DNA of 64,000 bases from an uncultured Acidobacteriia bacterium. Lineage in GTDB: Bacteria; Acidobacteriota; Terriglobia; Bryobacterales; Bryobacteraceae. The translations under genes and the position numbers were made by a program. The stretch is from the NCBI GenBank assembly GCA_903923395.1, contig CAIXXM010000162.1, positions 1 through 64,000 on the forward strand, in the 5' to 3' direction. Numbering within the stretch: position 1 is the stretch's first letter; each line of letters starts with the position of its first letter. Shown piece by piece: positions 48,214 through 61,780 of this stretch. The notes below the pieces were generated by a model, which was not told the origin of the DNA, ran no database searches, and saw only the letters and a program-made list of their open reading frames with translations.

Positions 48214-50412
48214 ATGACACTCCAACTCGAATTCCTTAAAGATTTGTGGGATCCCGAAGTCGCGCAAAAGTACGAAAACGATCCCCTTGAATTGCTGCGT
48301 TACCGGTCGAACCTGCTGGGCAGTGACCTCCGCATCACGAATTTCGGCGGTGGCAACACCAGTTCCAAGTTCGAAATGAAGGACATCTTCAGCGGCAAGC
48401 TGGCCAAAGTGCTGGCGGTGAAGGGTTCCGGCGGTGATATCGGGTCAATGAACCGGCATGGCTTCGCGGTCCTTTATCAGGACAAGCTGGAACAACTGGT
48501 GGATGTTTACCGCGGGGAAGACTTTGAAGACGAGATGGTGGATTACTATCCGCCAGCTGCGTTTGGAGCGAATAAGGTGGCGGCTTCAATTGATACGCCG
48601 CTGCATGGTTTGCTGCCCTTTGACCATGTGGATCACCTGCACCCGGATTGGGCGATCGCACTGGCGGCGAGTGCCAACGGCAAGCAGAAGCTGGCGGAGT
48701 TTAATGAGCGGTTCGGGCGCAAGTTAGTCTGGCTGCCCTGGCAGCGCCCGGGTTTCGAGCTTGGCTTGATGTTACGGAAGGTTGTGGCGGATAACCCCGG
48801 CTGTGATGGTGTGATTCTTGGTGGGCATGGCCTCTTCACTTGGGGTAACACGCAGCGGGAATGTTATGCCAGCAGCGTCTTGACCATCGATCAGATGGGG
48901 CAGTTTGTTGCCGCGCACCGGCCTGGCAAGGCTTTGTTTGGCGGCGTGGCTATTGATGGCACTGCGGCCGTGGCGAATGAGATTATGCCGTTCCTGCGCG
49001 GTGCTCTCGCCACCACGAAGCGCACGATTGCGCACTTTAGTGACGCGCCGGAGGTACTGGAGTTCGCGGGTTCTGTCTGGGGTCCGCAACTGGCGCAACT
49101 CGGCACCAGCTGCCCGGATCACTTTCTCCGTACACGCATCCGCCCGATGTTCGTGAACTGGGATCACCGGACCGAAGATCTGGCTGCACTGAAGAATAAG
49201 ATCACGGAGAGCGCGGCGCAATACCGGGAAGAATACGCGGCTTATTACAACGAGTGCAAGGAAGCTTCTTCGCCGAAGTTACGCGATGCGAATCCTTCGG
49301 TGGTGCTGATTCCCGGTGTCGGTTTGTTCTCCTTCGGGCGGAATAAGAGAGAGGCCCGGATCACCTGTGAATTCTTCATCAACGCTATCCACGTGATGGA
49401 AGGCGCGAACGCACTTGAGGACGGCCCGGCGCCGGACCCACTGCCCCAGGCGCGTTTCCCTGAGCAATCCAGAAACTTCAAGAGCTTCCATAACTACGTG
49501 GCACTGCCGTTACTCGAAGCCTTCCGGATTGAGTACTGGGCGCTTGAAGAGGCCAAACTGCAGCGCATGCCGGCCGAGCAGGAATTCAGCCGCAAGATTG
49601 CCCTGGTGGCCGGTGGTGGCAACGGCATCGGGAAGGCTACGGTGCTGGAGTTAGTCCGGCGCGGGACACATGTTGTGGTGGCGGATCTGGATTTCGAGGC
49701 AGCGGAAGCGACGGCTGCCGAGGCGGCGAAGTTATCGTCCGGCGAGACAGTTTTGGCTGCTAAGATTGACATCACGAACCGGACCAGCATCGCGGCGGCA
49801 TTGCAGGCTGCGGTGGCGAAGTTTGGCGGTGTGGATATTGTGGTGAACACCGCGGCTATCTTCCCTGTGCCGGGTCCGGATGGCAAGTTAGCGGAAGACC
49901 GCTGGGCACTTACGTTTAATATCAACATCACGGCAAACTATCTGCTTGCCGATGAGGCCCGGCGTATCTTCCAAGAGCAGAAGCTGCCTGTGTCACTGGT
50001 GCTGACCAGTTCGGCGAATGCCGTAGTGCCGAAGTTTGGCAGTGAAGCGTATGACGTCAGCAAGTCCGCGACCAGTGCCCTGATACGGGAGTTGGCTGTT
50101 GGCATGGCGCCGCTGGTGCGTGTGAACGGCATCGCGCCGGCAACGGTGGTTGCTGGCTCCACAATGTTCCCGCGGGATCGCGTCATGAGTTCGCTGAGCA
50201 AGTATAAGATCGAGTTCAGCGACGCGGAAGATACCGAATCACTGCGCACGAAGCTCGCAAAGTTCTATGCCAAGCGCACGTTGACGAATGATCCGATTTT
50301 GCCGCAGGATTGCGCGGAAGCGATTATATATCTGGCGAGCGACAAAGCTGGGCGTACTGCCGGTCATATCATCCCCGTGGACGGCGGCTTGCCGGAAGCG
50401 TTCCTCCGGTAA
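48214..50412 (+). CDS. Bifunctional rhamnulose-1-phosphate aldolase / L-lactaldehyde dehydrogenase
   Basis: 732 residues. Residues 1-~440 are a class II aldolase: ITNFGGGNTSSKFEM, VDHLHPDWAIA with the zinc histidines, and ILGGHGLFTWG. Residues ~465-732 are a short-chain dehydrogenase with the nucleotide motif GGGNGIG, NTAAIFP, and the catalytic S...Y-x3-K in YDVSKSATSALIREL. This matches the RhaEW/YuxG fusion, which splits rhamnulose-1-phosphate into DHAP and L-lactaldehyde and then oxidises lactaldehyde to lactate. It follows rhaI and precedes the kinase. Confidence 0.94.
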   Translation: MTLQLEFLKDLWDPEVAQKYENDPLELLRYRSNLLGSDLRITNFGGGNTSSKFEMKDIFSGKLAKVLAVKGSGGDIGSMNRHGFAVLYQDKLEQLVDVYRGEDFEDEMVDYYPPAAFGANKVAASIDTPLHGLLPFDHVDHLHPDWAIALAASANGKQKLAEFNERFGRKLVWLPWQRPGFELGLMLRKVVADNPGCDGVILGGHGLFTWGNTQRECYASSVLTIDQMGQFVAAHRPGKALFGGVAIDGTAAVANEIMPFLRGALATTKRTIAHFSDAPEVLEFAGSVWGPQLAQLGTSCPDHFLRTRIRPMFVNWDHRTEDLAALKNKITESAAQYREEYAAYYNECKEASSPKLRDANPSVVLIPGVGLFSFGRNKREARITCEFFINAIHVMEGANALEDGPAPDPLPQARFPEQSRNFKSFHNYVALPLLEAFRIEYWALEEAKLQRMPAEQEFSRKIALVAGGGNGIGKATVLELVRRGTHVVVADLDFEAAEATAAEAAKLSSGETVLAAKIDITNRTSIAAALQAAVAKFGGVDIVVNTAAIFPVPGPDGKLAEDRWALTFNINITANYLLADEARRIFQEQKLPVSLVLTSSANAVVPKFGSEAYDVSKSATSALIRELAVGMAPLVRVNGIAPATVVAGSTMFPRDRVMSSLSKYKIEFSDAEDTESLRTKLAKFYAKRTLTNDPILPQDCAEAIIYLASDKAGRTAGHIIPVDGGLPEAFLR

Positions 50413-50420
50413 GTCGAGAC

Positions 50421-51845
50421 ATGAACGGGGACTATTTAGCGATTGATCTGGGTGCCGAAAGCGGGCGTGCCTTAACCGGCAGGCTCCGCGACGGCATCCT
50501 GTCCGTGGATGTTACAGCGCGCTTTCCCAATCTGCCAGTGGCGGAGCGGGAAACGCTGCGCTGGGATGTATTGCGGCAGTGGAGTGAAATCCAGATGGCG
50601 ATCCAGGGTGCGGGGAAAGTCACCAGCATCGGTGTGGATACGTGGGGTGTCGATTATGCGCTGCTGGGGGAAGGCGGCCGGCTGCTGGAGAATCCATATC
50701 ACTATCGCGACAAGCGCACTGCGGGAGTGATGGAGGAAGTTACTGGCAAGCTGACGCGGGAGCGGATTTACGGCGTCACTGGCATCCAGTTTCTTCCCTT
50801 CAATACGCTGTACCAATTCGCTGCTGCCAAGCGGGATACGCCGCGGCTTCTGGAAGCGGCGGATACGCTGTTTACGATTCCGGATCTCTTCAATTACTGG
50901 CTGACCGGTGAAACCGCGACGGAATATACAAATGCGACGACGACGCAGTTTCTGGATGCAGCGAAGCGGGAATGGTCAACGGAACTGCTGGACGCGCTGG
51001 AGTTGCCGTCGCGCATGCTGACAAGAATTGTGGAGCCGGGAACGGTGCTGGGGAGTTATCAGGGAATCTCCGTGGTGGTTCCGGCCTGCCATGATACGGG
51101 GTCGGCAGTAGCAGCGATCGCGACCGGTGAAGACACGGCGTATTTGAGTTCAGGAACTTGGTCATTGCTGGGTGCTGAGATCCCGGAGCCAATTCTCAAC
51201 GACCGGGCGCGCGAACTGAATTTCACGAATGAAGGCGGAGTCTGCGGAACGATCCGGCTGTTGAAGAATATCGGCGGCTTGTGGCTGTTACAATCCTGCC
51301 GTCGGCAATGGCAGGCGGAGGGGCGAGAGTACTCTTACGATGAGTTACTGGATGCGGCCGCTGCGGAGACGGAATTGTTCGGGGCTCTGGTAGATCCAGA
51401 TGATCCGTCGTTTCTTAGTCCGGTGAATATGGTTGCGGCGATCAACGGGTTTCTCGCAAAGACCGGGCAACCGCTACCGCAAACGCCGGGTGCATATACG
51501 GTGGCGATTCTGGCGAGTCTGGCGTTTAAGTACAGGGCTGTTCTTGAATCGCTGGAAGAGTTGACGGGGCGGAAGTTCCGGGCTATCCGAATCATAGGTG
51601 GCGGTGCCAAGAACCGTTTGCTGAATCAATTCACGGCCAACGCGACCGGGCGGCAAGTGATTGCCGGGCCAGTGGAAGCAACGGCGCTGGGCAACCTTGC
51701 CATGCAGATGCTGGCGACTGGCGGTGTAAGTTCACTGGCGGAAGCACGGGCGGTCATCGAACGCTCCTTTCCAGTGGACCGTTATGCGCCGGGTGATGCG
51801 GATGTTTGGGATCGGGAATACAAGCGCTTTCTGAGTTATCAGTAA
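50421..51845 (+). CDS. rhaB: Rhamnulokinase
   Basis: 474 residues from ATG 50421, 8 bases after the aldolase gene. An FGGY-family kinase: DYLAIDLGAESGRALTG (phosphate 1 motif), GVDTWGVDYALL, DLFNYWLTGETATEYTNATTTQF, the ACHDTGSAVAAI phosphate 2 block, LSSGTWSLLG and IIGGGAKNRLLNQFTANATGRQV. These are specific to rhamnulokinase rather than xylulo- or glycerol kinase. It phosphorylates L-rhamnulose at O1, linking isomerase and aldolase steps. Confidence 0.95.
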   Translation: MNGDYLAIDLGAESGRALTGRLRDGILSVDVTARFPNLPVAERETLRWDVLRQWSEIQMAIQGAGKVTSIGVDTWGVDYALLGEGGRLLENPYHYRDKRTAGVMEEVTGKLTRERIYGVTGIQFLPFNTLYQFAAAKRDTPRLLEAADTLFTIPDLFNYWLTGETATEYTNATTTQFLDAAKREWSTELLDALELPSRMLTRIVEPGTVLGSYQGISVVVPACHDTGSAVAAIATGEDTAYLSSGTWSLLGAEIPEPILNDRARELNFTNEGGVCGTIRLLKNIGGLWLLQSCRRQWQAEGREYSYDELLDAAAAETELFGALVDPDDPSFLSPVNMVAAINGFLAKTGQPLPQTPGAYTVAILASLAFKYRAVLESLEELTGRKFRAIRIIGGGAKNRLLNQFTANATGRQVIAGPVEATALGNLAMQMLATGGVSSLAEARAVIERSFPVDRYAPGDADVWDREYKRFLSYQ

Positions 51846-51857
51846 GCTGACCGGGAG

Positions 51858-51863
51858 TACACT
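51858..51863 (+). promoter_or_regulatory. Possible -10 box (TACACT) before a GTG start
   Basis: TACACT lies 6 bases before GTG 51870, so the transcript would begin at the start codon. CGAAGGG between them might alternatively serve as a weak Shine-Dalgarno. Confidence 0.25.
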
Positions 51864-51869
51864 CGAAGG

Positions 51870-53936
51870 GTGTTCATCCGGCTGATCATCCTTCTGGCTC
51901 TCATCGCGGGGCCAGTATTTGCGCAAGACTATCGTGCGTACTTCACGGCGAAAGCGCCGCAGGTATTGGACCGTTTCTACAAGCGCTCCGATGCCATGGT
52001 GGATGCGGGGCATGTCCACAGCGCGGCGATGGCAGCGGCTTGCGAGACACGGCTTTGGCAGCTCACCGGCGATACGGCGCGGGCCCGGTCCGCTACAGAG
52101 CGGTTGCGTTCCATTGCGGCGCTGTTGGGCAAGCCGACAGAGGCGAACTTCTTTGTGCCGTATCCATTGACGTGGACTTACCGCGCGCTGGATGCAGGCC
52201 ATATGCTGGATGAGCCGCTGAAAGTGGCGATGCAGGATGCCGTGGCGAAGAGCTTGCGCGCGCGGGATTTTCAAGGCCTGCACAATCAAACATTGCAACG
52301 GGCGGCGGGCTTGGGGCTGGCTGCGCAGACTTGGCCCGACTTACCGCAGGCGAAGGCTTGGCGTAGTTACCTGGAGACCATTTTTGCGCTGCTGGCAAAG
52401 ACGGGGGACGTCCCCGAGAATGCGCCTAACTACAACGCGATCGACCTGCCCTTTGTGTTCCTGATCTCGGATGTAGCGGGACATCCTGAGTATCCGGCAA
52501 GGCCCTCCATACGCGCTATGTTTTTGCGATATCGGGATCAGGTGTCACCCGCTGGATTCCTGCCGCCTTACGGAGATTCAGGTCACGCGCCAAAGCCGTT
52601 CGACCCCGCGTGGCCGATGCATGAGAACTGGGCCATGTTTGCCGCGGCATTTGAGCGGGCGGCGAAACTACAGCAAGATCCGACGCTGCGCTGGGCGGCG
52701 GTACAAATGGCCGCGACAGGCATGGCGCGTGAACCGTTGGGACTGACAGCCACAGATGTTGAGCCGCTGTTTGTATTTTCCTTTGCAGAGGAATGGCGGG
52801 ATAAAGGATTGCAACCCAGTCGGCCTGAAGCAGGATCAGCGATCCTGACGAGGGCGGATGAACATAGTCCGACTGTTATGGACAAACTCGTGCTCGCCGC
52901 GTCACGGGCAGCGGGTTCGCCCTTTCTCTTATCCGATCTCTATGTTCGCGGGCCGCATGCTCATGAGAATCAACACGGGGCGGTCACTTACTACGAGGCT
53001 GGTGGAGTGCCATTGATTACTTCGACAGGCTATAACAACAGGCAGCCGGATTATGCATCGCTGCCGGTGATGTGGCTGGCAGCGGATTCACCGGATGGTC
53101 TCCCGCAGGGCTATGAAGCGAATCACTGGTATGAGGCTGTGCTGCCGCTCTCCCGTCTGCCCAGCCGGAAGGTGACCGGGTTAACCGTACGGATCGAATC
53201 GGGTGGCGGCCCGGTGAGTGCCTGGGCTGGTGGTTTCCGGCTGATCGGGAAGGATAGTGTGGACTTGCACTGGGACGAATTGCACTGGGAGGATCCCAAG
53301 GGCGTGACATTCCATAGCAAGATGTTCGATCAGCCAATCGACGTCAGCCGTTATACCGCAATCGCTTTCCGATGGAAGTTATCCAGCAATAAACAGAATG
53401 CGCGTCCAGTGATTCTCCGTGTGACCACTGGGGATCTGAATACCGATTATCATGCGGAGGCGCTGCAGTTAGAGCCAGAGCTGACCGCAGCGAGGGTGGA
53501 GGTAAGCCAAGGCAGGCAGTACGGTGTGATGGAATACTCGAACTGGTTCACGCCTGGTACGACGCTGCGGCGTGAGATGGTGCTTCATCCAGACGGGGCT
53601 TTGTTGGTTCGCGATACAGTAACTCCCGGACCAAATGCGAAGGGAATGAAGGTGGCTCCCGTCTGGCAATTGGGTCCGGTGACTGAACCACAGAAAGGCG
53701 CCAATTGGTTTCAGGCGGATAACCTGCTGGTGTGGTTCGCGCCGGCAGAGGGGCAGAGCTACGGGTTGCAGACTATGGATATCTGGTCAAAGAAGAAGCA
53801 CCGGCGGGTGTTTGCTTCGCGCGATGCAGAACCAGGGAAAGCGATGGTGTTCACTACGGTACTGCTGCCAGCGGGTCCAGGGTCCACACCGGAGAAGGCT
53901 GCAGATATTGCCGCTGAACGGCTCACAGCGAAGTAG
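51870..53936 (+). CDS. Exported heparinase II/III-like protein, putative polysaccharide lyase
   Basis: 688 residues from GTG 51870, signal peptide MFIRLIILLALIAGPVFAQ. The first ~340 residues are helical with the look of an (alpha/alpha) toroid: NYNAIDLPFVFLISDVAG, LPPYGDSGHAPK, HENWAMFAAAFERAAKL. The second half is beta-sandwich (HAHENQHGAVTYYEAGGVPLITSTGYNN, SNWFTPGTTLRREMVLHPDGALLVRDTV), the architecture of heparinase II/III and alginate-lyase-like enzymes. Tyr, His and Asn residues in those blocks could be catalytic. Being directly after rhaB it may release rhamnose-containing sugars, for example a rhamnose-glucuronate lyase (PL27-like); this is inference and the family is not firmly placed. 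Confidence 0.65.
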   Translation: MFIRLIILLALIAGPVFAQDYRAYFTAKAPQVLDRFYKRSDAMVDAGHVHSAAMAAACETRLWQLTGDTARARSATERLRSIAALLGKPTEANFFVPYPLTWTYRALDAGHMLDEPLKVAMQDAVAKSLRARDFQGLHNQTLQRAAGLGLAAQTWPDLPQAKAWRSYLETIFALLAKTGDVPENAPNYNAIDLPFVFLISDVAGHPEYPARPSIRAMFLRYRDQVSPAGFLPPYGDSGHAPKPFDPAWPMHENWAMFAAAFERAAKLQQDPTLRWAAVQMAATGMAREPLGLTATDVEPLFVFSFAEEWRDKGLQPSRPEAGSAILTRADEHSPTVMDKLVLAASRAAGSPFLLSDLYVRGPHAHENQHGAVTYYEAGGVPLITSTGYNNRQPDYASLPVMWLAADSPDGLPQGYEANHWYEAVLPLSRLPSRKVTGLTVRIESGGGPVSAWAGGFRLIGKDSVDLHWDELHWEDPKGVTFHSKMFDQPIDVSRYTAIAFRWKLSSNKQNARPVILRVTTGDLNTDYHAEALQLEPELTAARVEVSQGRQYGVMEYSNWFTPGTTLRREMVLHPDGALLVRDTVTPGPNAKGMKVAPVWQLGPVTEPQKGANWFQADNLLVWFAPAEGQSYGLQTMDIWSKKKHRRVFASRDAEPGKAMVFTTVLLPAGPGSTPEKAADIAAERLTAK

Positions 53937-53954
53937 CATTCTGCCTCACTAAGT

Positions 53955-53960
53955 TATAAT
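53955..53960 (+). promoter_or_regulatory. -10 box (TATAAT) just before the threonine aldolase gene
   Basis: A consensus TATAAT ends 9 bases before ATG 53970, giving an almost leaderless transcript. No Shine-Dalgarno is visible and a -35 is not obvious. This is the best example of the start-proximal boxes in the window. Confidence 0.4.
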
Positions 53961-53969
53961 CGCCTTCTA

Positions 53970-55070
53970 ATGAAACGACGCAGCTTTCTTTCCATACCTT
54001 CACTCGCTGCCTTGACCGATGCGGAAGCCGCCACGGGCGGATCACCGGTGGTGGCATCGGGTGATGGATTGTCACTGTCGCCGGCGGAGTATGCCGCGCT
54101 GCTGCAAAAGCTCAGTTCGAACGTGAAGGCGGACAGTTACTCCATTGGCGGAGTGGTACAGGAGTTGGAAGCCAAGGTGGCGGCCGCGCTGGGGAAGGAA
54201 GCGGCGGTGTGGATGCCTACCGGGACTCTGGCGAATCACATGGCAGTGCGTCTGCTGGCTGGAGAGCGGCGGCGTGTTGTGGTACAAGCGGAAGCACATC
54301 TATTCCATGATTGCGGGGATTGCTGCCAAACGCTGAGTGGACTCCACCTTGTGCCGCTGGCACCGGGCAAAGCGACTTTCACGCTGGACGAGGTCAAGGA
54401 ACAAGCGGAACGTGCCGTCACCGGACGGGTAACAGTGCCTGTGGGAGCAATCCAGATTGAGACGCCGGTCCGCAGGAAGTCGGGCGAGGCATTTGACTTC
54501 GGAGAAATGAAGAAGATCTCCACGTGGGCTCGGGAAAACAAAGTTGGGATGCATCTCGACGGAGCACGCTTGTATATGGCTTCGGCATATAGCGGGATTC
54601 CTGTAATGGAATACGCGAAGTTATTCGACACAGTGTACGTATCGATGTATAAGTACTTCAATGCAGCAAGCGGAGCAGTGCTGGCCGGACCGAAAGCGCT
54701 GCTGGAAACTTTATATCATCCACGGCGTATGTTTGGCGGTGGACTTAGTCACGTTTGGCCTTTCGCGGCGGTTGCGAATCATTACTTCGACGGCTTTGCG
54801 GGAAGGTTTCAGCAGGCAGTGAACACATCGGAGGCGGTGATCGCAGGACTGCAAGGTGATTCGCGGTTTCAGGTGAACAGGATTCCAAACGGCACGAATA
54901 TCTTCGGCCTGCGATTGCTGCGAGGGGATGCGAACAAGTTCCATGAAAGTTTGCGCAGTGCGGGGATTGTGGTGCCGGCACCGCGGGGGGATGCGTTCCT
55001 GTTCAATGTGAACGAGAGTTGGAACCGGAAGAGAACGGAGGAGATCTTAGGGGTTTTGCGGCAGGGTTGA
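53970..55070 (+). CDS. Threonine aldolase-like PLP enzyme with a Tat-type leader
   Basis: 366 residues. Beta-eliminating lyase fold: DSYSIGGVVQELEAKVAAALGKEAAVWMPTGTLANHMAVRLL, IQIETPVRRKSGEAF, VGMHLDGARLYMASAYSGIP, and the PLP lysine in YVSMYKYFNAASGAVLAGP (~residue 228). The low-specificity enzymes cleave L-threonine or allo-threonine to glycine and acetaldehyde. The N terminus reads MKRRSFLSIPSLAAL, a twin-arginine-like leader, so this copy may be exported already folded with PLP. A metabolic link to the rhamnose genes is possible but not evident. Confidence 0.88.
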   Translation: MKRRSFLSIPSLAALTDAEAATGGSPVVASGDGLSLSPAEYAALLQKLSSNVKADSYSIGGVVQELEAKVAAALGKEAAVWMPTGTLANHMAVRLLAGERRRVVVQAEAHLFHDCGDCCQTLSGLHLVPLAPGKATFTLDEVKEQAERAVTGRVTVPVGAIQIETPVRRKSGEAFDFGEMKKISTWARENKVGMHLDGARLYMASAYSGIPVMEYAKLFDTVYVSMYKYFNAASGAVLAGPKALLETLYHPRRMFGGGLSHVWPFAAVANHYFDGFAGRFQQAVNTSEAVIAGLQGDSRFQVNRIPNGTNIFGLRLLRGDANKFHESLRSAGIVVPAPRGDAFLFNVNESWNRKRTEEILGVLRQG

Positions 55071-55136
55071 GGACACAGGTTGGCCCCGGGGGAATGCCAG
55101 GTGAAGAAGGGCGTTGGGCGTGACTCGCTCCTGAAA

Positions 55137-55147
55137 GGCGCACGAAC
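55137..55147. repeat. Isolated copy of the GGCGCACGAAC repeat core
   Basis: The 11-base core of the 45.4-kb array and of the 40.17-kb hairpin occurs here after CTCCTGAAA, a degraded form of the hairpin arm. It lies between the threonine aldolase gene and the convergent minus-strand genes. Confidence 0.45.
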
Positions 55148-55152
55148 GTGGG

Positions 55153-55302
55153 TTAGGGTTTTGTTGGTTCTTCGTCTTTGCGTCGAGACTCGACGCTACA
55201 GGTGTTGTTCATTCAAGTGGCAACGCCGAAGCGGGGGAGAATCCAGCGCTGCAGGATGAACCAGAACGCGAGGACGCCCAGAACCTTGAGTGCTTCTTCC
55301 AT
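55153..55302 (-). CDS. Candidate small membrane selenoprotein (in-frame TGA) or 29-residue peptide
   Basis: The ORF starts at ATG 55302, 17 bases after the amidohydrolase stop. It encodes 29 residues with one membrane helix (VLGVLAFWFILQRWILPRFG), then an in-frame TGA at 55213-55215. The frame continues 19 codons to TAA 55153. Read with selenocysteine, the junction is GVATU-MNNTC, so U30 and C35 could form a redox pair, followed by a charged tail (SVESRRKDEE). A hairpin suited to a bacterial SECIS lies 17-33 bases after the TGA. If TGA is a stop, only the 29-residue peptide remains. The selenium-incorporation genes are not in the window. Confidence 0.4.
55180..55196 (-). promoter_or_regulatory. 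Candidate bacterial SECIS hairpin
   Basis: In the minus-strand RNA, GCGUCGA-GUC-UCGACGC gives a perfect 7-bp stem with a GU-containing 3-base loop. The loop G-U falls 24-25 bases after the UGA; in E. coli fdhF it falls at 20-21. The palindrome may instead belong to a dispersed repeat, since the GGCGCACGAAC core is 33 bases away. Confidence 0.4.
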
Positions 55303-55319
55303 AGCTTCAGTATCGCAAA

Positions 55320-56507
55320 TTATTTGGCCTTGTAGACCTTGCCTGCGCGCATTACGAAAACCACGCGCCGGAGAGCCGTGATGTCCTTGAGCGGGTCGCC
55401 ATCCACTGCAATCAGGTCAGCCTCCATGCCGGGTGCGAGGGTTCCGATCTGGTCCCCGAGGTTCAGGGATTCCGCGGAGAGCGACGTTATGGAAGTGATG
55501 GCAGCTTTGGGATCCTGTCCGCCCTTCTGGACGCGGTAGATCAGTTCTTCCACATTGTGTCCGTGTGCTCCGGCCACCGCGTCTGTACCAAAGACGATCT
55601 TGAGGCCGGGAGTCGCCAGCGCCTGCTTGAAGACTGCAAGGGCTATGGGGATGGAACGTGCCATGGCCGCCATACCCTCTTCCGTGTAGTTACCGATACC
55701 GAGATAATTGGCCTTGTGCTCCAAATAGTTCTGCGCAACCAGGCCTATGTTGGGATCGAAGTAAGTCCCCTTGGCTGCGAGTAACTTCAGCACTTCGGGC
55801 GTCACCAGCGTACCGTGTTCCACAGCGGTACAACCCGCGTTTGACACCTGCGTGATGGTGTCAGGGCCATAGACGTGTACCAGAGTGCGAAGGCCCTGGG
55901 CTTTCGCCTCGCTGCAACCGGCTTCGATTTGCTCCTGCGACAGCGTTGCGCCACCGCCTTCGCGGAAGCTTTTGGAGGCGAACATCTTCACAACGTCGGA
56001 ACCATCTGCCTTCATCTTGCGGACTGCCTCACGGATCTGCTCCGGCGTCATCGACGGATTGCTGATGGCGCGGAGCGACGTCAGGACGCGGGGGCCGGGC
56101 AGTACGCCACGGTTGATGGCGTTGCGCACATCGCCATCGATTGGACTACCCACACTTTGTACGGTGGTGAAGCCGCTCAGCAGAGTCACATATGCGTTCT
56201 CCATGGCATAACCCATGGCGGTTACCTGGTTATCATCGCGGGGTTGATAACGTCCATCGGGGCCGAAGTGCCAGGCAATGTGGACATGGGTATCTATCAT
56301 GCCGGGCAGGACGGTTAGTTTGCTGAGATCGTAAGTGACGCCCTTGGCCGCCGGGTCGATTTTCGCGATCTTGGAGCCAGTGATCACGATAGAGGTGTTA
56401 TGTTGCACGCCGCCCTTACCATCCAGGACGGTGCCGGCCTTGATGACGACCGGTTGCGCCTGGGCGAGCGCGCTCAACATGACGAACAACGGAAGCTTAT
56501 TTGTCAT
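55320..56507 (-). CDS. Exported amidohydrolase (imidazolonepropionase-like / Xaa-Pro dipeptidase-like)
   Basis: 395 residues from ATG 56507 (GTG 56537 is an alternative). Signal peptide LPLFVMLSALAQAQ. A small beta domain leads into a TIM barrel with the metal motif H-V-H in GMIDTHVHIAWHF, a likely carboxylated lysine in SDVVKMFASKSF, histidines in TLVHVYGP and TAVEHGTLV, and the catalytic Asp in VFGTDAVAGAHGHN. Members hydrolyse dipeptides, isoaspartyl peptides or cyclic amides. It is 51 bases behind the macroglobulin gene, probably in the same transcript. Confidence 0.9.
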   Translation of the reverse strand: MTNKLPLFVMLSALAQAQPVVIKAGTVLDGKGGVQHNTSIVITGSKIAKIDPAAKGVTYDLSKLTVLPGMIDTHVHIAWHFGPDGRYQPRDDNQVTAMGYAMENAYVTLLSGFTTVQSVGSPIDGDVRNAINRGVLPGPRVLTSLRAISNPSMTPEQIREAVRKMKADGSDVVKMFASKSFREGGGATLSQEQIEAGCSEAKAQGLRTLVHVYGPDTITQVSNAGCTAVEHGTLVTPEVLKLLAAKGTYFDPNIGLVAQNYLEHKANYLGIGNYTEEGMAAMARSIPIALAVFKQALATPGLKIVFGTDAVAGAHGHNVEELIYRVQKGGQDPKAAITSITSLSAESLNLGDQIGTLAPGMEADLIAVDGDPLKDITALRRVVFVMRAGKVYKAK

Positions 56508-56558
56508 TTCGATAGAGTGTAGCAATCGGACTGTCACGGAATGGCCACGGCGCGTGGC

Positions 56559-59500
56559 TCAACGCCTGATGACCTCAAGCACGGCCGGGCGTGCGGTAGA
56601 CGAGACCGCAGGATCATAGTATTCGTAGACACGCGACGCGAACGTCTGTGTCCGAATGGGGTATTTCGCCCGCAGCCGAAACGTCACATGAACCGGGCTG
56701 CCGGGTTTGATGGCGTCGAAGTAAAGAATCGCCTGCGTTGGCGTAACACTGAACTTATCCAGCCGTCCACCATGCTTGTTGGCGGTGGCTCGCTTCAAGT
56801 CCACCAGATCCTCAGACAGAAGCTCGAAGCCCGGGGGAATACCGAGGTCCACCATCACCATGTTAGCGGTCTGCGCCATCAGGTTCCTGATATTTGCCGT
56901 GGCGGTGACGACTTCATTTTGCGCGAGGCGGGTCCGGTCATAAGTGACCTGTATGGAGAGTTGTTCACGTGATGGCTGCACGGTCCATGGGACGAAGTAG
57001 CGGCCAGCGACCTGATAGGCTGGTGTGCCCTCACCTGTGAAGCGCAGTTCCACATCATTGGACGCAAGTGCATCTGCGCCCTTGAAGACAAACTGATGGA
57101 AGAGATCATTGTTTTCCGGAGTTAGTGTGAGGGTGGCTGCAGTTCGCCCGTTGAGCAGGATCTCAGCTTTACCTCTGGCGCTGCCCGAAACGCTGCCAGC
57201 CGAGAGAACCAAGGCGCGCAGAGCCATGATCGTGGCCTGCGTGGTGCCCCATGTACCGGAGGCCCCTTTCTTCGAGATGATGTAGTTCATTGCTTTTGTG
57301 GTCAGTGCAGGCTCAGCACCGCGCTTGATGAGGGCTTGCACGGCGAGCGCCCTTGTCTCGACCGAAGCACTGACCCCGGTGCCGTACATCCCGGTTTGTT
57401 CAGAAGTCCAGAAAGCCGTGTCGCCCTCGCTGGACCTTGCCTCCAGGAGCAACCGGAAGATGCGGTCCGTCAGGGAAGGGTCTTTCCCGTAATCGACCGC
57501 GAAGTTGGCCAGGATGGCGAGAGTGTAAGGGTCGCGAGTTAGCTTCTCATCCAGATGTTGGGAAAGGTACTGGCGGGCATGCTCGATGGCCGGCCCCTGG
57601 TATTGACTTACCCGCAGTGACCAAGCCACATATGCTGTAATACGCAAGATATCGGACTGAAACCGGTTGGTGGCGCCTTCCTGGATGCCATTGCCATCAG
57701 GATTCCAACTGCCATCGGGCCTTTGTTGCGACGCGAGCCATTGTTGCGTGCGGCTGATCACCGCTGGATCGATATCATGGACTTTCGACATATCCTGGAA
57801 TTCCATGAGTCCATAGGCCGTGAGTATCTTATTTGCGGGGCTTGTTCCGAACCAGGAGAATCCACCCCCGGGCACTTCAAAGGTGACTAGACGCTGGTAA
57901 CCCATGCCGATAAAGCCGCTTGCCTTGGCACTGATCTCTGGTGTGACTTTCTTCGTGCGCTTCATATAATCCAACGCAAGCACGTTGGGATAGGTACTGG
58001 AGGACGTTTGCTCAAAACAACCGTGTGGCATTTGCAGAAGACTGTCCATGCCTTCCACCAGTTGGCTCATGGGTCCGGGATAGAGGCGTACAAAGACTGT
58101 GCGGGCGTCAGGAATGGCGCTGGCGGGGAAGCTCACGGTGTGTTTGACCGCACGTTGAAGCTGGCCATTGAACACCAGGCTTTCTTCTTTGCCGTTGGGG
58201 ATAACTTCGATTTCACGGATGACGATATCCTGATACCGCTGAGCACCGTTCATGGTGGCACGCAGCGTCAGTTTGAATTTGCCAATGCGCTTCGCCGCGA
58301 TACGGAATTGCGTGCCTTCGACCCGGCCGGATGTGGATACTATGGTTTTGGAAGACGGATCGCCTTCGAGCGTATACCAGTCGGCTGGTTCTAACTGCAC
58401 TTGGACGCTGCCATTGACGCCGCTGTAGTTATAGACAGCAACGGGGAGCGACACCTCGTCACCCTGCGTCAGAGTAACCGGAAGATCGAGTTCCGTGAAG
58501 AAGTCCTGGAAGACTTTGATGCTGGAGGCGCCGCTGCCGAGGGCTCCATGCTTCGTGGAGGCCAGCAGAGCCATGCGCCACGTCGTGATGTTATCCGCGA
58601 TCGGGATCGTAATGCTGGCGCGGCCATCTCTATCTGTGATGATTTCCGGCCGCACGAACAGGGATTCCGGAAACCATGTGCGGACATGTGGCTCCACAGC
58701 GGCAGGGATGCCGCTAGCAGGTGCTTTCGGCCCATCTTTGTACGCCCGGATGCGTGGGACCATGGCCGCCCCATTCGCCATGGACGCATCCATAGACATC
58801 GCCACCATGGCGCGTGCCCCTGCTTCGACGGCGATGGATTGGGAGACGTACCCGATCTGCAGAACTGCGGCGGCCACGGCGCGTTTCCCCGCCGGCAAGT
58901 CAAAATCTACGCGCGACAGGCGGAAGCCCTGGGTGTTGACTTCCAGGCGGAAACGCCCTGGCTTGAGTCCTGCGAAGCGGAAGCGTCCATCCCCGCCGCT
59001 GGTCAACAAATGAACTTGGCCCGTGGTGAACTCCACCAAGCGGATGGGAGCATGGCCTACTGGCGCTTCGGTGGCATCCGTGACCAGGCCAGTTACTTCT
59101 CCCGGACCGTCTAACGGTTCAAAAGTAATTACCGCGCGCACTGGCGAGGAGGAGCGGTCACACCAGGGGTCATCCAGCACTCCGACGATATCATCCGCTG
59201 TTTGGAACTTACCGTCCGGGCCCGCGCTGCGCAGCTCCGCGTATCGGGCATCCCACGAACGGTAACTCACCCGGACTGGCGTTCCCCAGGGATCCTGGAT
59301 ATGGATACCCTGGACGCGCTTCTCCATGCCGGACTGCTGGCAACTGGAGAATTCTACGGGCTTGCGGATGGCGTTGGCCAAAGGAGACGCTGTAGTCATC
59401 AACTGCTTGTAGTAGCGTTCGGTATAGGCATTCGCCTTGCGGGTTTCTTGATCTGTGCCGAACGAGATAGATACTGAATTATTCTGGACTGATTCAGTGG

Positions 59501-61727
59501 CCGAGAACAGCGCGCGGGCTGCAAGATCTCTTTCCAGTAGCGACGGATCATTCGAAGAGATCACTGCCGGCATTCCAATGGAATGTATTTCATACCTGGG
59601 TTTCATCAACTCCTGTTCGAGATAGAAGAACACCTTTGCGAAGCCTGGCTGTTTCTCAGCGAGGGCGAAGACGGCTTGATCCACCACCTCAACTCCCAAG
59701 GCAGCCTGCACGCCCTGCCCTTGCCGGTTGGTGACGTGGAAACTTACTTTTGCTTCCGTGCCTGGCTTATAAGTGGCAGCGTCCATTACGGTTTTGATGC
59801 GCAGGTCATCCGCGGGCCGGACGAAGATCATGCGATGCGCATTCCGGGGACTGCCATCATGTCCAAACACATAGGCATTGAACTCCACCGTACCGGCCAT
59901 CGCGGCTGTCGCGGGAACATCCAGCGCGGCCTTGCCATCGATAATATCCAGATCATAAGTACCGATGGTCTGGCCGTCTTTGATCATATCCACATAGGCG
60001 CTGCCCCGCTGCCTGCCGGTCCTCACTTGCATACGCACCTGTTCACCTGCGAGATAAAGCGCCCGCTCGGTATGCAACAGAATTGGCTCCGGACCGGCTT
60101 CTGCTTTGAGATCGAGTTGATCGGAGGCATGGTTGCCTTCGTGATCACTTGCTTCCACTCGGAACCGGGGCTGCTGGGTGTATTCGTGCGCGGTCACGAT
60201 TGCAATGCCGGAGGCGTCCGTGCGGACATGCTGGTCCGTGATGCCCGCGCCATGAAATACCAAGTCGGCCTGGGCGGGTGTTCCATCAGGATAAGAAGCC
60301 AACAGGAAGATTTGGTTTTCCAAGCCGGGGATCAGAACCCCGTTTTCGGGCACGGCGGTGATGAGAAGAGGAGAGTCGCTGACGGTAATGGGTTCGCCCC
60401 TGGTTTCGATGTGCCCGGCACCATCTTTCACCGTAGCCTCAATCAGGACCTGTGCCGCACCTTTCGTTTTACCTGCAAGGAAGTCAGGCAGACGCAGGTC
60501 AAAGGCGAAGCTGCCATCGGCTGTGGTTTGCCCTTCCACCGAGGCGGCATCGGCCAAAGTTACATCCAGCGTGGTAGCTTTGACGTTGATATGTGCGTGA
60601 TCCACCGGCTTGCCAAAGAAATAGTTACTGCGGATGACACCGGTTACATGTTCGCCGGGCCGGTAACCCCGCCTGGTCTTTGCCGCCTTTGCGGATAAGT
60701 CGACATCCACCTTGAAGCGCGGCAGAACATACCGCTCCACCTGCAACGCGATCTCACTGCGGACCGGCGTAGTTTCCTGCGAAGGGTCATCGAGCACGGC
60801 GCGCAGGTGATAAGTCCCGGTGTTCACCTCCTCCGCCAGTTCGAAAGCCGCGGAGGCAATGCCGTAACTATCAGTCCGGGTGATTTCACGGAAGACTTTG
60901 TTGCCCCGCGAATCTTCCACTTCGAATGTCAACTTATGATTGGCGAAGGCTTCGTGGCTGGCACGGCCCAAGGCCAGCGCCCGGGCATGGATGAGTTGGC
61001 CGGGCTGATACACGGGCTTTTCCGTAGTAAGGAGTATGGCCGCCTTGGTTTCCAGCCGCACCGTCTGCAGATATTCCGCGTCGCCGAGCGGGGTCTCGAC
61101 AATGTATCTCAATTGACGTTCGCCGCTGGTTCCTGTTGGGAATTGGAACTGCGCGCGGGTTGTTCCCCGGCTGTTCAGTTGGCTGCGAAGCAGAACCTCC
61201 GGCTTGCGTTCACCCCCTTGCAGTTCGATTCGGAGATTCCCTGTTGTGACCGGTGTATCCCCGCCGGCTTCGGTAACGATCACACGAACCGCAGCGGGTC
61301 CACCGGAGAGATAGGACTGCTGGCCGAGTACGCGCACCAAAGGCCGCTGCAGGATTTGGGAGATCGCCCGAATGCCTTGCAGCGTAGGCGTCTGTTCGCC
61401 CTGAAAGGTGAAGCTGAAACGCAGGCGGTGCCAGACGAGGTCTTCCACGCCAAGGTTCTGGGGCAGTAAGACTGGCTGGTCGCGAAGGCCTTCCCTGGCG
61501 GTGAGAGTGATGTTGCGTTCGAGGCGTCCGATTACATGGTCTTCGGGGTCCAGGACTTCCACAGTTAACCGCCCCGCGCCGCTGCGCAGACCTGCATAGG
61601 GGATCGAAACATGTAACACGCCGTTGCGGCAGATCGCGCTCACTGCACCACCGGAATTCGATTGCCCGAGGGACAGGATGCTAAGCAAGATGCAACACAC
61701 CACCAACCAAAAAATGGATCTCTTCAT
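56559..61727 (-). CDS. Alpha-2-macroglobulin family protein with an inserted carboxypeptidase-regulatory-like domain
   Basis: 1722 residues from ATG 61727, with GGAGG 6 bases upstream. Signal peptide RSIFWLVVCCILLSILSLGQ. The N-terminal ~850 residues are macroglobulin (MG) beta sandwiches (LTTEKPVYQPGQLIHARAL is the MG2-type start; YRPGEHVTGVIRSNYFFG). Residues ~873-975 hold a carboxypeptidase-regulatory-like domain. The thioester motif is C1237-F-E-Q1240 in MPHGCFEQTSS, within an alpha/alpha toroid. The receptor-binding-like end is beta-rich. Bacterial A2Ms trap proteases in the periplasm; no lipobox Cys is seen. It follows a sigma/anti-sigma pair. Confidence 0.94.
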   Translation of the reverse strand: MKRSIFWLVVCCILLSILSLGQSNSGGAVSAICRNGVLHVSIPYAGLRSGAGRLTVEVLDPEDHVIGRLERNITLTAREGLRDQPVLLPQNLGVEDLVWHRLRFSFTFQGEQTPTLQGIRAISQILQRPLVRVLGQQSYLSGGPAAVRVIVTEAGGDTPVTTGNLRIELQGGERKPEVLLRSQLNSRGTTRAQFQFPTGTSGERQLRYIVETPLGDAEYLQTVRLETKAAILLTTEKPVYQPGQLIHARALALGRASHEAFANHKLTFEVEDSRGNKVFREITRTDSYGIASAAFELAEEVNTGTYHLRAVLDDPSQETTPVRSEIALQVERYVLPRFKVDVDLSAKAAKTRRGYRPGEHVTGVIRSNYFFGKPVDHAHINVKATTLDVTLADAASVEGQTTADGSFAFDLRLPDFLAGKTKGAAQVLIEATVKDGAGHIETRGEPITVSDSPLLITAVPENGVLIPGLENQIFLLASYPDGTPAQADLVFHGAGITDQHVRTDASGIAIVTAHEYTQQPRFRVEASDHEGNHASDQLDLKAEAGPEPILLHTERALYLAGEQVRMQVRTGRQRGSAYVDMIKDGQTIGTYDLDIIDGKAALDVPATAAMAGTVEFNAYVFGHDGSPRNAHRMIFVRPADDLRIKTVMDAATYKPGTEAKVSFHVTNRQGQGVQAALGVEVVDQAVFALAEKQPGFAKVFFYLEQELMKPRYEIHSIGMPAVISSNDPSLLERDLAARALFSATESVQNNSVSISFGTDQETRKANAYTERYYKQLMTTASPLANAIRKPVEFSSCQQSGMEKRVQGIHIQDPWGTPVRVSYRSWDARYAELRSAGPDGKFQTADDIVGVLDDPWCDRSSSPVRAVITFEPLDGPGEVTGLVTDATEAPVGHAPIRLVEFTTGQVHLLTSGGDGRFRFAGLKPGRFRLEVNTQGFRLSRVDFDLPAGKRAVAAAVLQIGYVSQSIAVEAGARAMVAMSMDASMANGAAMVPRIRAYKDGPKAPASGIPAAVEPHVRTWFPESLFVRPEIITDRDGRASITIPIADNITTWRMALLASTKHGALGSGASSIKVFQDFFTELDLPVTLTQGDEVSLPVAVYNYSGVNGSVQVQLEPADWYTLEGDPSSKTIVSTSGRVEGTQFRIAAKRIGKFKLTLRATMNGAQRYQDIVIREIEVIPNGKEESLVFNGQLQRAVKHTVSFPASAIPDARTVFVRLYPGPMSQLVEGMDSLLQMPHGCFEQTSSSTYPNVLALDYMKRTKKVTPEISAKASGFIGMGYQRLVTFEVPGGGFSWFGTSPANKILTAYGLMEFQDMSKVHDIDPAVISRTQQWLASQQRPDGSWNPDGNGIQEGATNRFQSDILRITAYVAWSLRVSQYQGPAIEHARQYLSQHLDEKLTRDPYTLAILANFAVDYGKDPSLTDRIFRLLLEARSSEGDTAFWTSEQTGMYGTGVSASVETRALAVQALIKRGAEPALTTKAMNYIISKKGASGTWGTTQATIMALRALVLSAGSVSGSARGKAEILLNGRTAATLTLTPENNDLFHQFVFKGADALASNDVELRFTGEGTPAYQVAGRYFVPWTVQPSREQLSIQVTYDRTRLAQNEVVTATANIRNLMAQTANMVMVDLGIPPGFELLSEDLVDLKRATANKHGGRLDKFSVTPTQAILYFDAIKPGSPVHVTFRLRAKYPIRTQTFASRVYEYYDPAVSSTARPAVLEVIRR

Positions 61728-61780
61728 AACCAACCTCCAACCTGAGAACGGCGGAGGTCAGGATTCTTGCAGAGAAAATT

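Follow-up and report, generated by a model that had tools for sequence, protein, structure and literature searches.

A single-helix membrane microprotein gene with an in-frame UGA in an acidobacterial genome: probable member of a large and overlooked selenoprotein family

A short gene in the genome of an uncultured member of the Bryobacteraceae very probably encodes a selenoprotein and represents a large family that appears to have been overlooked. The gene lies in the window, that is, the whole stretch of 64,000 nucleotides that was analysed. The identification rests on a frame that is open on both sides of the UGA, on the selenocysteine (Sec) machinery of the host, on a hairpin downstream of the UGA, on compensatory changes in the stem of that hairpin and on Cys replacements that lack it. 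The existence of the family, the conservation of its UGA and hairpin, the presence of the machinery and the association with SelA were established by comparison. The insertion of Sec at the UGA, as a chemical event, is an inference from nucleotide sequence without any protein or selenium measurement, albeit one that we consider close to certain. In the mechanism proposed here, SelB and tRNA-Sec(UCA) would read the UGA at 55215-55213 as selenocysteine, directed by the hairpin at 55196-55180.

The initial annotation had described, without giving a strand, a 29-codon open reading frame ending in TGA, the continuation of the same frame over 19 codons to a TAA, a Cys five codons past the TGA (GVATU-MNNTC) and a perfect hairpin with loop GUC that starts 17 bases past the UGA and places the loop GU at bases 24-25. 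All of these elements were recovered on the minus strand (Table 1). The frame, read from 55302 to 55153, translates as MEEALKVLGVLAFWFILQRWILPRFGVAT-UGA-MNNTCSVESRRKDEEPTKP-UAA, and its full product would comprise 49 residues with Sec at position 30. In the AlphaFold2 model a helix spans residues 2-24, with a mean pLDDT of 76 and a tail at about 60. The plus-strand reading of the same interval is open without a UGA and was set aside as not being the finding. The stop of the upstream amidohydrolase gene is separated by 17 nt from the ATG of the selenoprotein gene on the same strand, and a shared transcript of the two genes is possible; when adjacent ORFs were clustered, the amidohydrolase ORF fell into no neighbour cluster common to the other loci that were clustered together with it. 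A scan of the window against Rfam at gathering scores gave no match. Further along the minus strand, at 56559-61733, the window contains an open frame of 1724 residues that presumably resembles proteins of the alpha-2-macroglobulin type.

Table 1. Positions of the putative selenoprotein gene, of its elements and upstream neighbour, and of two Cys-containing fusions (numbering of the window unless a locus is named)
Feature	Position	Strand	Basis
Putative selenoprotein gene: ATG, 29 codons, UGA, 19 codons, UAA	55153..55302	-	Frame and relatives
ATG start of the gene	55302-55300	-	
Single predicted helix, residues 2-24 (membrane helix and juxtamembrane LQRWILPR)	55231..55299	-	AlphaFold2 model, hydropathy by column
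Proposed Sec codon 30, UGA	55213..55215	-	UGA at the same column in 197/203 distinct loci
Cys codon, Sec +5 (UxxxxC)	55198..55200	-	Cys at +5 in 77/110 members
bSECIS-like stem-loop GCGTCGAGTCTCGACGC, 7 bp, -9.3 kcal/mol	55180..55196	-	Fold; family covariation
Loop GUC of the hairpin	55189-55187	-	23 nt between UGA and loop
UAA stop of the gene	55155-55153	-	
Amidohydrolase gene directly upstream	55320..56537	-	ORF and Pfam
Membrane helix, Cys at the Sec column and fused DUF302	L236:1611-2198, L237:1608-2213	-	

Bacterial SECIS (bSECIS) elements are described, in the available part of a 2026 review, as stem-loops with a loop of 3-9 nt, a stem of 4-16 bp, a position 16-37 nt after the UGA, a G in the first two loop positions and an energy of -7.5 kcal/mol or lower (PMC13188914). 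The window hairpin fits this published model in loop (GUC), stem (7 bp), distance (23 nt) and energy (-9.3 kcal/mol). The initial annotation had noticed a repeat core nearby and had cautioned that the hairpin could be one copy of a dispersed palindromic repeat, lying beside a small ORF by chance. The hairpin 17-mer occurs at one place only in the genome (6,152,153 bases in 169 contigs, 98.5% complete; at most one mismatch), which removes this worry for the window hairpin, and at one place only within the window (at most two mismatches). The repeats of window positions 50000-60000 (20 direct families and 25 inverted pairs listed) included no long, high-identity family at the hairpin among the matches listed. 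As hairpins at a like offset with compensatory changes are also present in other phyla, the probability of a repeat copy can be regarded as negligible. A different reading takes the UGA as an ordinary stop that leaves a 29-residue membrane peptide, with the hairpin serving as a terminator or some other RNA element. By translation table 11 the frame does end at the UGA, and the energy of the local 77-nt fold is, taken alone, unremarkable (z -0.95; an equally good fold is reached by 38 of 200 shuffles); against a terminator, no T-run follows the window hairpin.

The genes for which the initial annotation had suggested a search, selA, selB, selC and selD, are all represented in the window's genome, with SelA at 416 bits, SelB at 344 bits (over the curated cut-off), SelD at 364 bits with one in-frame TGA, and tRNA-Sec at 76.6 bits with anticodon TCA. 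This SelD (AAG-U-ASKLSP, encoded at G000:C67:81762-82685 and catalogued as L071) is a Sec form as well and offers a sign, internal to this genome, that UGA is recoded.

Homologs that conserve the TGA together with the region downstream of it were found in several phyla. A scan with the single protein yielded 22 loci, all of them with TGA at the same column, from taxa that include Terriglobia, Bryobacterales, Acidobacteria, Spirochaetes, Desulfuromonadales, other Deltaproteobacteria, Myxococcales, Calditrichaceae, Verrucomicrobia, Latescibacterota and the like. Profile searches at E 0.001 or lower, each in a set that contains its centring genome and each with some weak matches in its count, matched 94 of 396 genomes in the window's phylum, 27 of 325 in the phylum of a Spirochaetes MAG, 135 of 326 in that of a Desulfuromonadales MAG, 23 of 250 in that of a Myxococcales MAG and 3 of 249 in that of a Verrucomicrobia MAG. 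The codon at the Sec column was read in 214 loci, 203 of which are distinct once second copies (L034, L035, L037, L136, L140, L141, L170, L216, L231, L236 and L237) are removed. The rarity with which Cys replaces Sec is striking: 197 distinct loci have UGA and only four have a Cys codon, the remaining two (L133 and L203) being weak loci without a UGA in frame that were not accepted as members. Among the 197 UGA loci, five belong to the divergent CPTU subtype described below and some are weak profile matches (e.g. L212 at 13.7 bits and L198-L202 at 18-25 bits). Five rows from the window's phylum (G029:C24, G055, G374, G138 and G098) remained outside the codon reading, as did some rows of the Spirochaetes-, Desulfuromonadales- and Myxococcales-centred sets; for all of these rows only the stop column was seen. 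Rows without a listed stop were deliberately included, so that any bias among the loci read should be towards Cys forms. Eight such rows came from the Desulfuromonadales set; in seven of them (L196-L202) a TGA lies either shortly beyond the aligned segment or within the CPTU motif, and the eighth is the rejected L203.

The family core can be written as (W/Y)xxLQRW(I/V)LPR(L/F)GV(P)T-U-(M/A)SxxC. In a set of 110 members (107 distinct, as L034, L035 and L037 are still included), the T before Sec is present in 108, P at -7 and G at -4 in 109 each, L at -13 in 100 and W or Y at -16 in 107; Cys occurs at +5 in 77 members and anywhere from +4 to +8 in 86. The median length in this set, with a Cys form counted, is 56 residues. 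A second group carries UAVPxPRR or UAAPxP in place of UMSxxC. Past the UGA the frame stays open, the next stop coming after a median of 26 residues (minimum 12, with one contig-end case counted), and this openness, together with the Cys at +5, is not what an ordinary stop would lead one to expect. Among 129 related sequence pairs, differences at codon positions 1, 2 and 3 number 678, 327 and 1261 before the UGA, a clear third-position excess, and 488, 447 and 655 in the 12 codons after it. The weaker excess past the UGA counts in favour of an ordinary stop and is weaker proof of coding in that part; coding combined with hairpin constraint would give such a pattern.

For the family as a whole, hairpins were accepted when they had a loop of 3-8 nt with a G in the first two loop positions, an unbroken stem of at least 4 bp and a distance of 15-31 nt from UGA to loop. 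A hairpin of this kind reached -7.5 kcal/mol or lower in 71 of 110 members; the rate was 5.8% in codon shuffles and 4.6% at other offsets in these loci (n = 746). For -5 kcal/mol or lower the figures were 97 of 110, 13.5% and 13.3%, respectively. In 56 loci from genomes not used before, 25 reached the stricter threshold (1.2% of codon shuffles) and 43 the more permissive one (3.7%). Under the unbroken-stem rule no hairpin of -5 kcal/mol or lower was found in 13 of the 110 members and in 13 of the 56 additional loci. Covariation was evaluated in the 122 of 163 sequences with a Cys codon at +5 (UxxxxC members). When the loop is placed at bases 24-26, pairing is seen in 62.5% of the stem cells, compared with 31-43% when one side is slid, a figure that takes in members whose loop lies elsewhere. 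In the 65 members selected by loop letters only (GUC, GGA and GUU) pairing reaches 87%, compared with 24-50% slid, and in a GG-loop subset of 26 it is lower (76%, compared with 41-54% slid). Among the 65, the stem pairs 16-32, 17-31 and 18-30 (0-based) each occur as four pair types, including reversals such as G-C to C-G.

The four distinct loci with a Cys codon at the Sec column (L054, TGT; L226, TGC; L227, TGC; L234, TGT) have no such hairpin (0, -1.2, 0 and 0 kcal/mol). Three of them come from Myxococcota genomes, and with the UGA forms the four make up the Cys/UGA pairing that is classic for selenoproteins. In two Myxococcota Cys forms the frame runs on into a DUF302 domain (87 and 94 bits), and one of the DUF302-fused forms is then followed by a rhodanese gene; the fusions of helix and DUF302 at L236 and L237 (Table 1) should be useful for finding the function of this domain. 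The gene at L054, which has a GTG start preceded by a purine-rich stretch and is followed by a PIG-L family gene, belongs to G187, a genome from the same taxonomic family as the window's that gave no SelA match. Under the ordinary-stop reading one would not expect Cys forms that read through the UGA column, two of them into DUF302, nor a hairpin that keeps its place after the UGA with a G-led loop and is missing in the four Cys forms, nor an association of the family with SelA; we therefore regard that reading as very improbable and retain Sec insertion.

In the window's phylum, SelA is present in 87 of the 94 genomes with a family match and in 165 of the 302 without one (Fisher p 6e-13); SelA matches were counted as present unless their E was about 1e-21 or weaker, which removed 24. 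Since the genomes are related and kinship was ignored, this p value is too small. Among the 94 genomes are also G187, with its Cys form, and G294, which was not accepted. Among the 22 genomes behind L002-L023, SelA was found in all except G409 (L015). Seven of the 94 lack a strong SelA match. G187 does so as expected for a Cys form, and G138 is a weak row whose codon was not read; G079, G127 and G104 are 82%, 64% and 91% complete, G373 has a weak SelA only, and G046, a UGA form listed as 100% complete, has no SelA match. The few UGA-form genomes without detected SelA leave some room for the idea that the UGA is read as another amino acid by near-cognate read-through, with the hairpin as its stimulator, and the inserted residue cannot be shown directly by sequence. 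All four sense-codon forms, however, have Cys, the SelA association runs counter to the idea and the hairpin fits the bSECIS model, so that such read-through is, in our estimation, even less probable than an ordinary stop. With the machinery present, homologs that keep the UGA and a hairpin that is not a repeat, the selenoprotein interpretation offered in the initial annotation is supported by these comparisons, and none of the three outcomes that the annotation had named as refuting it (no selB/selC, no homologs conserving the region past the TGA, many hairpin copies) was observed.

Two kinds of variant were observed beside the canonical members. In the Desulfuromonadales-centred set, L198, L200, L201, L202 and L204 are a divergent second copy with PRLKPP..SF(S/G)CPTU, a CxxU-type motif; all five have a hairpin of -6.5 kcal/mol and precede a protein that, judged by eye from its sequence only, is of the aldehyde ferredoxin oxidoreductase type. 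They possibly constitute a second selenoprotein subfamily. Six loci (L196, L197, L199, L206, L211 and L213) have G-U or V-U instead of T-U, e.g. GIRGUGVGP and GIHGUQIPFPP, and five of the six have a hairpin of -5 kcal/mol or lower.

Averaged over 103 members, the net charge is -0.7 ahead of the helix and +1.5 over the 12 residues that lead up to Sec. By the positive-inside rule, the basic side of a membrane helix faces the cytoplasm. From the acidic N-terminus, the basic segment before Sec and this rule we infer that the N-terminus would lie outside and that Sec and the Cys at +5 would lie on the cytoplasmic face. There the two residues could form a selenenylsulfide or carry sulfane sulfur (Se-S).

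Neighbour genes were taken from simple ORF calls, so that the counts of genomic context are approximate. From 137 adjacent same-strand genes listed, 122 were scanned with Pfam, and the domains found were DUF302 (11), thioredoxin (10), rhodanese (9), ArsR-type HTH_5 (9), TauE (4) and OsmC (2). The five recurrent families account for at most 43 of the 122 genes, the loci are partly related and there is no random-neighbour background. Clustering grouped the adjacent genes into recurring kinds; among the proteins that represent them are one with Lactamase_B plus Rhodanese, a pyridine nucleotide-disulfide oxidoreductase that bears a rhodanese domain, and RND transporters. In the newer locus sets, CcdA-like and thioredoxin-reductase-like neighbours were read from sequence, without a Pfam result. 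A protein of 100 residues without a Pfam match at E 0.001, encoded at L080:2648-2947 (minus strand) and also at L079, sits after an RND transporter gene and just upstream of the selenoprotein gene. At the window's own locus none of the recurrent redox or sulfur neighbours is found, the adjacent gene being the amidohydrolase, and the ArsR, rhodanese/dioxygenase and TauE genes that adjoin some family loci do not adjoin this one. The earlier description of a redox-active membrane microprotein is an inference that rests on the neighbours of other members and not on those of the window.

The bigR sulfide-response operon, as far as the available text describes it, comprises the ArsR-type regulator BigR, a rhodanese-type sulfur transferase/dioxygenase and a TauE-related transporter (PMC5823870), and a DUF302 (PF03625) gene of unknown function is reported, in the accessible part of another study, to sit in sox clusters and to be linked to sulfur oxidation (PMC5037610). 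From the DUF302, rhodanese, ArsR and TauE neighbours, the DUF302 fusions and the parallels with bigR and sox, we infer that the protein may serve sulfane-sulfur or thiol-redox chemistry as a selenol/thiol relay anchored in the membrane. Such a membrane-tethered thiol/sulfur relay would have DUF302, rhodanese or thioredoxin proteins as its inferred partners and would stand under ArsR-type control in some lineages. A function in thiol or sulfur redox chemistry in general seems probable to us, and sulfane-sulfur handling in particular remains a tentative proposal of somewhat less than even probability. The selenoprotein might instead act in metal or metalloid handling (export or detoxification) or in antioxidant defence. 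ArsR-type and RND (ACR_tran) genes near some loci would suit such a role, as would the thioredoxin and OsmC neighbours and the CcdA-like and thioredoxin-reductase-like ones; DUF302 with rhodanese, Lactamase_B-rhodanese and TauE/SafE points to sulfur, and the Cys-form fusion is to DUF302, although neither observation is decisive. We consider this alternative role possible without favouring it.

That the family was missed may be attributable to its tiny size, to gene callers that cut it at about codon 30 and to the near absence of Cys relatives on which methods based on Cys/UGA pairs could draw. The program deep-Sep is stated, in the accessible portion of its description, to be possibly unable to identify selenoproteins without Cys homologs (PMC12013277), a blindness that may likewise explain why the family went unseen. 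Taken together, and with reservations, we propose a family that escaped notice for these reasons, in which Sec is nearly obligatory and which forms a selenium-dependent membrane relay for sulfane sulfur or thiols with DUF302 and with rhodanese or thioredoxin. Should this hold, a family with matches in 94 of 396 genomes of the window's phylum and in 135 of 326 of that of the Desulfuromonadales MAG is missing from the catalogue of prokaryotic selenoproteins. The family may also be what makes the costly Sec machinery worth retaining for some genomes, and DUF302, a domain of unknown function, would gain a testable partner. Re-examination of other small ORFs truncated at UGA, with read-through translation, is suggested.

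Searches for known relatives gave little. Fifty-two family members (set A2) had no Pfam match at the cut-off and no NCBIfam model better than E 0.02; kinship with Pfam Arabinose_trans or ATP synthase B, below the cut-off, was judged a chance similarity of helices. A profile search of the PDB returned a single, chance-like match (E 0.25), and a plasmid search with one member (L002) returned none. Among the 119 prokaryotic selenoprotein families in Table 1 of the 2026 review, the part of that source considered here, none was recognised as a single-helix microprotein family (PMC13188914), a comparison that excludes table families with only cd or PTHR models or with no model. In the literature, limited to titles and the starts of abstracts of open-licence papers, no such selenoprotein family was found among the matches listed.

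Several known systems resemble the family in part. Neither a Sec protein nor DUF302 is described for the bigR operon in the available text, whereas ArsR, Lactamase_B plus Rhodanese and TauE genes are shared with the surroundings of some family loci (PMC5823870). Similarly, neither Sec nor a membrane-helix partner is described for the DUF302 gene of sox clusters in the accessible part of that study, whereas here DUF302 is found in 11 of the 122 neighbours scanned and, as a fusion partner, in two Cys forms (PMC5037610). The LULAXC motif selenoprotein TsoA (NF045695) has U-L-A-x-C, which is similar to T-U-L-A-S-N-C of L008, but no NCBIfam match to NF045695 was obtained among the members scanned. 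The putative mercuric transport selenoprotein (PF02411) is a membrane protein. It is thus like the new family in being a Sec-bearing membrane protein, and it differs in that the members are without a PF02411 match and have only one helix; the table of the review lists it as a putative mercuric transport selenoprotein (PMC13188914). With the known prokaryotic selenoproteins, as the available part of the review presents them, the family has in common an in-frame UGA, a bSECIS with a small, G-led loop 16-37 nt after the UGA, and a Cys partner (PMC13188914).
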